Assembly: GCA_944328445.1 (NCBI GenBank)
Contig: CALVHO010000008.1
Span: 1-64,000 of the forward strand
Length of the DNA: 64,000 nucleotides
From: an uncultured Clostridia bacterium
GTDB lineage: Bacteria > Bacillota > Clostridia > Christensenellales > Borkfalkiaceae
Reading direction: 5' to 3'
The notes beneath the pieces are model-generated. The model did not search any database. It had not been told where the DNA came from and saw only the letters and a program-made list of their open reading frames with translations. Position numbers and translations under genes: made by a program. Shown here in pieces: positions 59,254 to 62,794 of the stretch (within the stretch, counting starts at the first letter, position 1; every line of letters starts with the position of its first letter).

Positions 59254-59332
59254 AGGGTGCGGGCGCAAAAACGGGTCCACTTATACGGAAAAACGCGCCC
59301 GCAGCCGAACGAGGCGGGGCGCAAAACAGCAC

Positions 59333-59371
59333 AAAACGCGCCCGCGGCCGAAGCCGCGGGCGCGCGTTTTG
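59333..59371. terminator. Bidirectional terminator
   Basis: CGCGCCCGCGGC-CGAA-GCCGCGGGCGCG (59337-59364) with AAAA before and CGCGTTTTGC after, between the convergent NUDIX and Cys-rich genes. Confidence 0.8.
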
Positions 59372-59387
59372 CAGGGGCGGGCGGGGC

Positions 59388-59591
59388 TTACTTGCAGCCG
59401 CAGCCCGAACGGAACATGTTGCACAGCCCGCCGTTTTTGCAGACGCAGTACGCGGCCGCGAGGATGACGGGCAGGTAGCAGCTGTCCAGGATCCCGCTCA
59501 GGACGCCGCTCTGCGAGCAGCAGAGGATGAGCAGGAGAATGAGGATCCACAGGCAGCCGTTGCCGCCGAAGTTTCCGTTACAACCGTTCAT
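59388..59591 (-). CDS. Small Cys-rich membrane protein
   Basis: This 67-residue protein has ten Cys: NGCNGNFGGNGC at the start, a hydrophobic helix (LWILILLLILCC), a second one (LPVILAAAYCVC) and CGCK at the end. The pattern resembles high-cysteine small proteins of Clostridia with unknown role. SD GGGAGGAAAG precedes the ATG at 59591. Confidence 0.72.
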   Translation of the reverse strand: MNGCNGNFGGNGCLWILILLLILCCSQSGVLSGILDSCYLPVILAAAYCVCKNGGLCNMFRSGCGCK

Positions 59592-59807
59592 TGATCTTTC
59601 CTCCCGAGGTGCCGCAGGCGGTATGTAGCGGTAAGGCGCGCCGCGGCAAAGTGGCGGCGCCCGCCGCCCTTCCTTGCACGGGCTGCGCGCGGCCGCTCTA
59701 CTTCATATGTACGCGCCGTTTTGCGGAAATGTTCCTGCACATCCCCGCGCCCGTCCATGCCTTTGCCCCTTTGCGCGCCCGCGCGGGGGCAAACGGCTGC
59801 AATTTAG

Positions 59808-59836
59808 TTGCCAATGGCGGCGTTTTTTGCTATAAT
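59808..59836 (+). promoter_or_regulatory. ECF transporter-coaX-hom promoter
   Basis: TTGCCA (59808-59813), 17-nt spacer, TATAAT (59831-59836). Transcript leader of about 143 nt. The rest of the gap 59592-59807 shows only GC-rich DNA and one CCCGTCCATGCC motif. Confidence 0.82.
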
Positions 59837-59842
59837 ATTGAA

Positions 59843-59985
59843 CCGCGGCGGGGAAGCCCGGCCGCAGCCGCCCGTCTTTGCGGGCGGGACCCATAAGCTA
59901 TGCGCGGGGCGGATACCGCGAGGGGCCGACCCCGTTGTGCGCATAAATATACTTTTTTCACGGATACTCCGCAAGAGGAGATCCG
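59843..59985 (+). ncRNA. Candidate riboswitch-like structured leader
   Basis: The leader can fold a closing stem TATGCGC/GCGCATA (59899-59905 with 59939-59945) around two hairpins, GCGG-ATA-CCGC and GGGG-CCGA-CCCC, a three-way junction. Upstream are GCGGC/GCCGC and CGCCC/GGGCG hairpins. A U run follows at 59953-59958, then a hairpin CGGAT-a-CTCC/GGAG-ATCCG (59961-59985) that hides the GGAG SD of the first gene. I find no consensus of TPP, cobalamin, FMN, THF or preQ1 riboswitches. Confidence 0.5.
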
Positions 59986-60723
59986 ATGGAGGTCATCATG
60001 AACAGGAAGCGCTTTTTCACTTCCCGCAACATCGCCTTTCTGGCCGTGCTGGTGGCGCTGGTCATCGTCTTGCAGACGCTGAGCACGCTGATCGGCCGCC
60101 TCGGCGGCACGCCGCTGAGCCTGGTGCTCATCCCCGTCGTGCTCGGCGCCGTCATGCTCGGCCCGCTCGCGGGCGTGCTGCTCGGCTTCGTATTCGGGCT
60201 GGTCACGGCCGTCTGCGGCGTCACGGGCTTTGACGCCTGGACGTTCCTTCTCTTTTCCGAAGAGCCGTTCTGGACCGTCGCCCTGTGCCTGGTCAAGGCC
60301 ACGGCCGCGGGCGGCGCGGCGGGGCTTTTGAACTATCTCATCGCCCGCAAAAACCCCTACGCGGGGGTCATCGCGGCGGCGCTGGCCGCGCCCGTCGTCA
60401 ACACGGGCATCTTCGTGGCGGGCTGCTTCGCCATGAGCGGCGCCATCGGCAACATCATGGCGCAGTCGGCCGAAACGGCGTCCGTCTCCCTCGTGTATTA
60501 CGTCATCATTTTGCTCGCGGGCGTGAACTTCCTCATCGAGTTCGCCATCAACGCCGTCGCCTCGCCCGCCGTGTTCACCGTCAGCCGCCTGTTCGTCAAA
60601 AAGCGCAGAACGCCCGCGGGCGCGCAGTCCCGCGAAGGGGCCGAGGGCCCTTCCGCAAGGCCCCTCGGCAGCGTTTCCGCGGCGGCCGTGAACGGGAACG
60701 AGCGGGCGGCGAACGAAAAATAA
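59986..60723 (+). CDS. ECF transporter S component, probably pantothenate
   Basis: This 245-residue protein has six hydrophobic helices and the overall look of an ECF-type substrate-binding (S) subunit: NIAFLAVLVALVIVLQTL, GPLAGVLLGFVFGLV and a long hydrophilic Ala/Arg-rich tail. It would dock with an EcfAAT energy module encoded elsewhere. The substrate is inferred to be pantothenate because coaX follows 11 nt downstream. Two starts are possible, 59986 (SD GAGGAG, used here) and 59998 (SD GGAGGT inside the frame). Confidence 0.8.
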   Translation: MEVIMNRKRFFTSRNIAFLAVLVALVIVLQTLSTLIGRLGGTPLSLVLIPVVLGAVMLGPLAGVLLGFVFGLVTAVCGVTGFDAWTFLLFSEEPFWTVALCLVKATAAGGAAGLLNYLIARKNPYAGVIAAALAAPVVNTGIFVAGCFAMSGAIGNIMAQSAETASVSLVYYVIILLAGVNFLIEFAINAVASPAVFTVSRLFVKKRRTPAGAQSREGAEGPSARPLGSVSAAAVNGNERAANEK

Positions 60724-60734
60724 GGGGAGTGGCC

Positions 60735-61514
60735 ATGGTCCTTTGCATCGACGTCGGCAACACCAACATCAAATACGGCCTGTTCCGCGGCGACGAGCTC
60801 GTCGTCAGCTTCCGCGTGGCCACCGAGCTCAACCGCACGAGCGACCAGTACGGCACGGCCATCATCGACATGCTGGCCGTCAAGGGCATCGCCCCGGCCG
60901 ACATCCGCGGCGCCATCATCTCCTCGGTGGTGCCCTCGCTCAACTATACGGTCTCGCACATGTGCTCGTATTACCTCGGCGTCGAACCCATGATGGTGGG
61001 CGCGGGGCTGAAAACGGGCCACAACCTGCGCGTGGACGACGCGCGCGAAGTGGGCGCCGACCGCATCGTCAACGACGTGGCGGCCATCCGCAAGTACGGC
61101 GCGCCCCTCATCGTCATCGACTTCGGCACGGCGACCACCTTCAACGTGGTCAACGAGCAGAAGGAATTCATCGGCGGCGCGGTGGCCCCGGGCATCCGCG
61201 GCTCGATGGACAGCCTCGTTTCGGGCACGGCCAAGCTGCCGCGCGTGGAGATCGAAACGCCCAGGAGCGCCATCGGCAAAAACACCGTCACCAACATGCA
61301 GGCGGGCATCGTGTTCGGCTTTGCGGGGCTCGTCGATTACATCGTCAAAAAGATCAAGCGCGAGATGAAGCGGCCCGACATGCGCGTGGTGGCCACGGGC
61401 GGGTTCAGCGAGATCATCGCCAAAGAAATTTCCTGCATCGATCACGTGGACAAACTGCTCACGTTGCAGGGTCTCAAATACGTATACGATCTGAATGCGG
61501 AGGTGAAAAAATGA
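60735..61514 (+). CDS. coaX: Type III pantothenate kinase
   Basis: This 259-residue ASKHA kinase phosphorylates pantothenate, the first step of CoA synthesis, and is feedback-insensitive. Motifs: CIDVGNTNIKYGLF (P loop), SSVVPSLN, GADRIVNDVAA, IDFGTATTFNVV and GGAVAPGI. The ATG at 60735 follows AAGGGGAG. Stop and hom start overlap (ATGA). Confidence 0.96.
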   Translation: MVLCIDVGNTNIKYGLFRGDELVVSFRVATELNRTSDQYGTAIIDMLAVKGIAPADIRGAIISSVVPSLNYTVSHMCSYYLGVEPMMVGAGLKTGHNLRVDDAREVGADRIVNDVAAIRKYGAPLIVIDFGTATTFNVVNEQKEFIGGAVAPGIRGSMDSLVSGTAKLPRVEIETPRSAIGKNTVTNMQAGIVFGFAGLVDYIVKKIKREMKRPDMRVVATGGFSEIIAKEISCIDHVDKLLTLQGLKYVYDLNAEVKK

Positions 61515-62794
61515 AGACAGTCGGCGTAGCCATCCTCGGCCTCGGCGTCGTGGGGAGCGGCACCTATACCATCCTGCGCGATCACCGTGAATTTTACCGC
61601 CGCACGCAGGACATCGACCTGTCGGTGGAATGCGTGTTGGAGATCAACAAGCAGAAGGCGCTCGCCCTCGGCATCGAGGAAAACCGCATCTGCGGCGACA
61701 TCGCCGAAGTCATCTCCAACCCCGCCGTCGACATCGTCGTCGAGGTCATCGGCGGCGTGGAACCGGCGCGCAGCTTCGTTCTGGCGGCGCTGCACAGCGG
61801 CAAAACGGTGGTCACCTCCAACAAGGAGCTGTTCTGCAAGCACTGGCACGAGCTGGAAGCGGCCGCCCGCCGCACCAACGCGGGGCTGTATTTCGAGGCC
61901 AGCTGCGTGGGCGGCGTGCCCATCATCCGCACCCTCATCGACGGCATGCAGGCCAACGTCATCCATTCGCTGACGGGCATCATCAACGGCACCACCAACT
62001 ACATCCTCACCCGCATGGCCCGCGAGGGCGCGGGGTATGCCGAAGTGCTCAAAGACGCGCAGGCCCTCGGCTATGCCGAGGCAAACCCTTCCGCCGACGT
62101 GGACGGGTACGACGCGGCCTATAAGCTCTCCATCCTGTCCAGCCTGGCCTTCCACACCAAAGTCCCGCTGGAAAACGTCTACCGCGAGGGCATCTCGCAC
62201 ATCGCCTTGCAGGACATCGCCTACGGAGACGAGCTCGGCTACGTTCTGAAACTCCTCGCCATCGGCAAGTTCGACGGGCACAAGTGCATCGAGGCGCGCG
62301 TGCATCCCGCCTTCGTGCGCAAGGACCACCCCCTCGCCGCCGTGAACGACAGCTTCAACGCCGTCTATTTGCAGGGCGACAGTGTGGGGGACATCATGCT
62401 CTACGGCCGCGGCGCGGGCGCCCTGCCCACGGGCAGCGCCATCGTTTCCGACGTCATCTACGCCGCCACCCACGGCGAGGCCAAGTACAGCGGGTTCAAG
62501 AACACCGAACACGCCGAGGCGGGCATCCGCTTCGTCACCGATTTCAAGAGCCGCTACTACGTCCGCTTTACCGCCAAGGACCGCGCGGGCGTTCTGGCCA
62601 AGGTGGCGGGCATCCTCGCCAAGTACAACATCAGCATCGCCGAGCTCGTGCAAAAGGACGGCAGCAGTGAGAGCGTGCCCATCATCCTCGTCACCCATGA
62701 AACGACCGAGCTCTCGGTGCGCGCCGCCGTGGAAAAGATCGCCGCGCTCGACACCGTCGAACAGGTGGACAGCGTCATCCGCGTCGAGGGCTGA
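61511..62794 (+). CDS. hom: Homoserine dehydrogenase
   Basis: This 427-residue enzyme reduces aspartate semialdehyde to homoserine for threonine and methionine. NAD-binding GVAILGLGVVGSGTY, catalytic SLTGIINGTTNYIL, NPSADVDGYDAAYKLSILS, and a C-terminal ACT domain (YYVRFTAKDRAGVLAKVAGILAKYNISI in pieces) are present. The ATG overlaps the coaX stop by 4 nt. Its place behind pantothenate genes is unusual. Confidence 0.96.
   Translation: MKTVGVAILGLGVVGSGTYTILRDHREFYRRTQDIDLSVECVLEINKQKALALGIEENRICGDIAEVISNPAVDIVVEVIGGVEPARSFVLAALHSGKTVVTSNKELFCKHWHELEAAARRTNAGLYFEASCVGGVPIIRTLIDGMQANVIHSLTGIINGTTNYILTRMAREGAGYAEVLKDAQALGYAEANPSADVDGYDAAYKLSILSSLAFHTKVPLENVYREGISHIALQDIAYGDELGYVLKLLAIGKFDGHKCIEARVHPAFVRKDHPLAAVNDSFNAVYLQGDSVGDIMLYGRGAGALPTGSAIVSDVIYAATHGEAKYSGFKNTEHAEAGIRFVTDFKSRYYVRFTAKDRAGVLAKVAGILAKYNISIAELVQKDGSSESVPIILVTHETTELSVRAAVEKIAALDTVEQVDSVIRVEG

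Follow-up and report, generated by a model that had tools for sequence, protein, structure and literature searches.

The leader RNA of a pantothenate-uptake and pantothenate-kinase operon in Candidatus Borkfalkia is homologous to the pan motif (Rfam RF01749), as shown by covariance-model comparisons that pass through its relatives, and thus represents a divergent variant of pan and not a new class. We are fairly confident that it is a tandem pan-type RNA that controls the translation of this operon. The operon lies in a 64,000-nucleotide stretch of DNA from an uncultured Clostridia bacterium (contig CALVHO010000008.1), hereafter the window. The pan motif was published upstream of panB, panC or panD operons (Weinberg et al., 2010, PMC2864571) and has been an orphan RNA since 2010; besides that work and one annotation, our literature search found no functional study of pan. 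Reviews name coenzyme A (CoA) as a conspicuous gap among riboswitch ligands, riboswitches for CoA not being known (PMC9971707; PMC10043782). New with respect to the published pan are the uptake/kinase gene context, an additional helix P1 and an output linked to the Shine-Dalgarno (SD) sequence. The SD-linked version is compact and readily tested by a translational reporter, and could open a fresh route to what pans sense.

A conserved and covarying leader RNA

The preliminary description had placed a compact three-way junction at positions 59843-59985, an interval that opens about 7 nt downstream of a strong promoter (Table 1). A promoter of the same type also precedes the element in the aligned congeners. 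The 143-nt leader is predicted to fold with -70 kcal/mol (z = -3.4; one of 200 shuffled sequences folded equally well), and its minimum free energy (MFE) fold is a row of hairpins instead of a three-way junction. When 30 genomes of the genus, including the one analyzed here, were aligned, positions 59890-59994 were conserved and the two hairpins at the 5' end were variable. The interval holds a stable leader but takes in some 47 nt of variable sequence, and its 3' end falls 9 nt short of the conserved element. RNAalifold recovered P1, hairpin 1 and the SD hairpin from the genus alignment, which was made from sequence only. Hairpin 1 of the window species has one A.G mismatch within its 5-bp segment, and outside the bulges the linker AAAUACAU(7) is well conserved within the genus.

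Table 1. Features of the leader and its operon in the window
Feature	Positions	Strand	Basis or remark
Promoter TTGCCA-17 nt-TATAAT, TG 5' of -10	59808..59836	+	Sigma-70, 11/12 matches
Two GC-rich 5' leader hairpins, variable among species	59845..59887	+	MFE fold; sequence unconserved in congener alignment
Conserved RNA element: P1, hairpin 1, linker, hairpin 2 and SD	59890..59994	+	Model R1 match; 30 congeners aligned; covariation
P1 5' strand UAUGCGC, closing helix enclosing hairpin 1	59899..59905	+	RNAalifold
Hairpin 1, pan-type, two bulged A: GGG-CGGAU-[A59915]-CC-GCGA-GG-GGCCG-[A59929]-CCC	59907..59932	+	Structure parses; pan consensus
P1 3' strand GCGCAUA	59939..59945	+	RNAalifold, parse
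U run, SD pairing possible, not a terminator	59953..59958	+	Fold and terminator search
Hairpin 2, pan-type: UCA-CGGAU-[A59966]-CUCC-GCAAGA-GGAG-AUCCG-[A59986]-UGG; 3' basal strand overlaps SD	59958..59989	+	Structure parses
SD GGAGG (most likely)	59988..59992	+	Conserved in relatives; predicted 7% unpaired in full leader
ECF transporter S-component, PF12822; start ATG 59998 preferred over 59986	59998..60723	+	
coaX, type III pantothenate kinase, PF03309	60735..61514	+	
hom, homoserine dehydrogenase	61511..62794	+	

A covariance model termed R1, built from 30 genus leaders including the window's own, scored the window element at 101.4 bits. Apart from sub-threshold chance matches, R1 found one strong site in 36 of the 37 Candidatus Borkfalkia genomes; the sole congener without the RNA (G029) also has no close match to the S-component. 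In the sampled genomes of the family, 115 of 201 were matched, spanning 14 of 18 genera. All 60 family sites that were fetched lie directly upstream of the S-component gene (or a replacement) and coaX, and hom was also present in 51 of the fetched stretches. The element also occurs outside the family, in one member of a second family of the order, where it stands before S-coaX and hom is missing. None of the weak R1 matches in relatives (E > 0.01) leads pantothenate genes. Moreover, a context-blind DNA scan of 84,980 named genomes with the hairpin 2/SD pattern returned 84 stretches, which belong to MAGs of Clostridia/Firmicutes, among them Candidatus Borkfalkia, Coproplasma and Gallimonas. Eighty of these were read as loci: in 76, the S gene or the gene replacing it comes next, and in the remaining four the contig ends within 201 nt.

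The pairing covaries. Within the genus, the covariation score was 0.199, as opposed to 0.118 for shuffled and at most 0.078 for slid registers; no slid register and none of the 500 shuffles reached this score. Across genera, 0.773 was obtained versus 0.297, with pair statistics inflated by an alignment fitted to the structure and by the omission of clear misparses; the genus statistics are not so fitted. The expectation of a structured, conserved and covarying cis-regulatory RNA was thus borne out. P1 scored 12.3 across genera compared with 6.5 when its flanks were shuffled. P1 is also palindromic and nearly invariant within the genus, so that TATGCGC...GCGCATA could conceivably be a DNA operator bound by a transcription factor, with the RNA folding being incidental. 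We rejected this reading, which we hold to be extremely improbable, because the sequence of P1 differs completely between genera with its pairing retained; furthermore, the palindrome is situated 3' of the promoter, and covariation is also seen in hairpins 1 and 2.

Relationship to the pan motif

The hairpins of the wider family share one plan: 3 bp, a bulged A in the 3' strand, 5 bp, a bulged A in the 5' strand and an apical stem. Both window hairpins carry the two bulged A (Table 1). In the best parse, in which the bulge bases were not scored, these were A in 83, 72, 90 and 90 of 90 leaders, compared with 31% in shuffles; the same parse of canonical pans gave A in 66-67 of 67. The window hairpins stand in tandem, in the same order as in the full-length alignment of RF01749 to a leader of the same operon from a relative (L093). 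This leader reached 44.2 bits over the whole model in cmscan, above the gathering threshold of 36.2. Sites in three further genomes (G147, G120 and G200) scored 46-53 bits, likewise above gathering; those of G147 and G200 are R1 sites, and that of G120 lies upstream of a replacement S gene and coaX. The RF01749 search of the family genomes was strictly filtered and missed the site of L093 itself, making the count of matches a lower bound. Overall, the Rfam pan model misses almost all members of this gut family.

The window sequence itself gave only chance matches and no family in Rfam searches at both gathering and permissive thresholds, in agreement with the earlier remark that it fits no known riboswitch consensus. 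RF01749 did not recognize it at any E-value up to 10, and its only site in the same genome was an 18.4-bit chance match elsewhere. In the reverse direction, R1 found none of the canonical pans. The homology to pan therefore runs via intermediates, and we do not claim a single joint model, since R1 misses canonical pans. That GGCACCGC looks like the T-box GGNACCGCG was also considered, and a T-box reading was rejected, as no Rfam T-box match appeared in the window or leader searches.

Could the leader still be the new riboswitch class, unrelated to pan, that had been suggested at first? The window sequence has no match to any Rfam family, and neither P1 nor the SD-linked output is part of the pan model. 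However, leaders of the same operon in the family exceed the RF01749 gathering threshold over the full model, the tandem two-bulged-A architecture is identical to that of pan, and canonical pans precede ECF-S-coaX operons as well. A separate class is thus very unlikely, and the original claim has to be given up in favor of a divergent pan. A match to a known Rfam family, named in the preliminary description as an outcome that would refute the claim, was indeed obtained by way of homologs. The likeness to RF01749 comprises the tandem two-bulged-A hairpins and the location in the leader of vitamin B5 genes. The window RNA differs from RF01749 by the extra closing helix P1, by the fusion of hairpin 2 to the SD, where canonical pans would have a terminator after hairpin 2, and by its position before ECF-S-coaX-hom, i.e., uptake and pantothenate-kinase genes, and not before panB, panC or panD.

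Hairpin 2 and its proposed output

At first, the SD had probably been taken to be a GGAG that lies within the hairpin and precedes ATG 59986. This GGAG is unconserved, being GGAA (GGAAAUCC) in most relatives; GGAGG followed by ATG 59998 is kept among the 30 genus genomes and most likely constitutes the SD and start codon. A hairpin predicted to close over the SD thus does stand at the ribosome-binding site, with the SD itself probably misplaced in the first reading. The U run noted after the fold is also present, albeit not as a terminator, as a search for terminator-like sites at the window element found none; it is able to pair with the SD. Control of the window operon is probably translational, through hairpin 2 ending in the SD. 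The mean unpaired fraction of the SD across the family was 0.19, compared with 0.29 when the upstream sequence was shuffled. Because this is only a modest difference, we infer rather than observe the blocking of the SD by hairpin 2. In its proposed hairpin closing over the SD, the window RNA resembles SD-sequestering translational riboswitches, among which it would be a candidate.

Of the canonical pans, 57% show a downstream stretch able to pair over at least 7 bp with the hairpin 2 3' strand, compared with 9% in shuffled sequences. This strand may therefore compete with an intrinsic terminator, acting as an antiterminator. With the same strand being antiterminator-like in canonical pans and contributing to the SD in Borkfalkia, the same pan hairpin seems to serve either termination or translation as its output.

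Gene context and the proposed signal

The assignment of the operon to pantothenate uptake and phosphorylation was upheld by the Pfam matches of the S-component and coaX, which hom follows (Table 1). In most family members, a hom gene is found 3' of coaX; it is absent after coaX in G662. In three genomes (G017, G021 and G025), an unrelated membrane protein replaces the S-component (BLASTP E = 0.40; no Pfam ECF match), with the same RNA and coaX being kept, and the replacement occurs at 9 of 60 sites in the wider family. This protein is a candidate for a second kind of pantothenate S-component. The replacement gene at L063:965-1657 and similar genes in L087, L100 and L115 belong to no Pfam family above cutoff. 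The retention of RNA and coaX despite the exchange implies that the RNA tracks the pantothenate kinase and not one transporter. A search for panB found none in the window's own genome or in 22 congeners, with 11 of 14 control genomes being positive. These bacteria thus probably depend on imported pantothenate or a later precursor.

The S-component has a weak match, below cutoff, to TIGR04518 of the FolT family. This match and the presence of hom in the operon could be taken to indicate that the riboswitch senses something else, for instance folate (FolT-like S-component) or threonine (hom), or else a static leader serving as an mRNA stabilizer or a low-efficiency ribosome-binding site. Such readings are very improbable in our view: exchange of the S-component leaves the RNA in place beside coaX, G662 has no hom after coaX, pan homologs precede pantothenate genes, and the highly conserved bulged A suggest specific recognition. 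The folate reading was rejected because the RNA follows coaX and not the S-component.

Canonical pans elsewhere occur in related settings. Among 398 genomes sampled from the phylum, 138 scored above the RF01749 cutoff. Downstream of most sites read lies panB, panC, panD or a gene resembling Rossmann-fold reductases. Five above-threshold loci (L175, L189, L192, L206 and L211) stand before ECF-S-coaX, with birA coming first in some. They have the ECF-S and coaX genes and the tandem hairpins in common with the window RNA, whereas their sequences, unlike that of the window, are near the Rfam consensus, and L175 has a terminator-like hairpin on its 3' side. At L185 and L193 (genomes G428 and G611), an above-threshold pan is followed by an OPT-family transporter and a type II-like (Fumble-type) pantothenate kinase (PF03630), which suggests that these OPT proteins are pantothenate or pantetheine transporters. 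At L187 (G532:C5), the pan RNA is followed by a gene for an SBF/BASS-family transporter, which might carry pantoate or pantothenate, and by panC. Another above-threshold pan, L176 (G238:C110), has neither a pantothenate gene nor a long same-strand ORF downstream, and opposite-strand genes (thiolase-like and enoyl-CoA hydratase-like) converge on it.

The persistence of the RNA with coaX through the S-component swap, the absence of panB, and the canonical pans before birA-ECF-S-coaX, OPT-type II kinase and SBF genes together point to sensing of the CoA pathway by pan-type RNAs, in line with the early suggestion of a ligand such as pantothenate, CoA or a precursor. The location before uptake and kinase genes narrows the plausible signal to a compound downstream of the kinase. 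Most plausibly the signal lies there, since it would be odd for a substrate to switch off its own kinase, while CoA would halt synthesis, uptake and phosphorylation all at once. Feedback by CoA is generally held not to act on pantothenate kinases of types II and III, which would make regulation through RNA a sensible arrangement.

We propose the following mechanism. With the CoA pathway saturated, the tandem hairpins would be stabilized by a bound signal, which could be CoA, one of its close derivatives, or a dimeric protein that reports CoA. Hairpin 2 would then be closed and the SD blocked, and the upstream U run could cover the remaining SD. When CoA is low, the base of hairpin 2 would open, allowing translation of the uptake and phosphorylation genes. 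For canonical pans, we suppose that the corresponding 3' side of hairpin 2 competes with a terminator instead.

Direct binding and a protein intermediary are about equally likely. The simple tandem layout of pan led its discoverers to suggest a motif bound by a dimeric protein (PMC2864571). Accordingly, a dimeric RNA-binding protein could grip the two-fold-related bulged A of the same RNA and clamp hairpin 2 over the SD, without any direct binding of a small molecule. The identical architecture of both hairpins and the lack of a large conserved single-stranded core in the element fit such a sensor, but within the genus strong conservation is not confined to the bulges and extends, for example, to the linker. 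We consider this protein-based reading a serious contender, somewhat short of even. A far-reaching version of direct binding, that pan-type RNAs including the SD-controlled one are riboswitches for CoA or a phosphorylated CoA precursor, repressing pantothenate synthesis, uptake and kinase at high CoA, is put forward tentatively and is rather unlikely as it stands.

Two further features were seen upstream of the leader in the window. A long GC-rich inverted repeat between A and T runs (59332-59375), located between a Nudix gene and the next small gene, is likely a bidirectional terminator. On the minus strand, positions 59385-59594 hold a small ORF for a cysteine-rich, hydrophobic product that starts with MNGCNGNFGGNGC...
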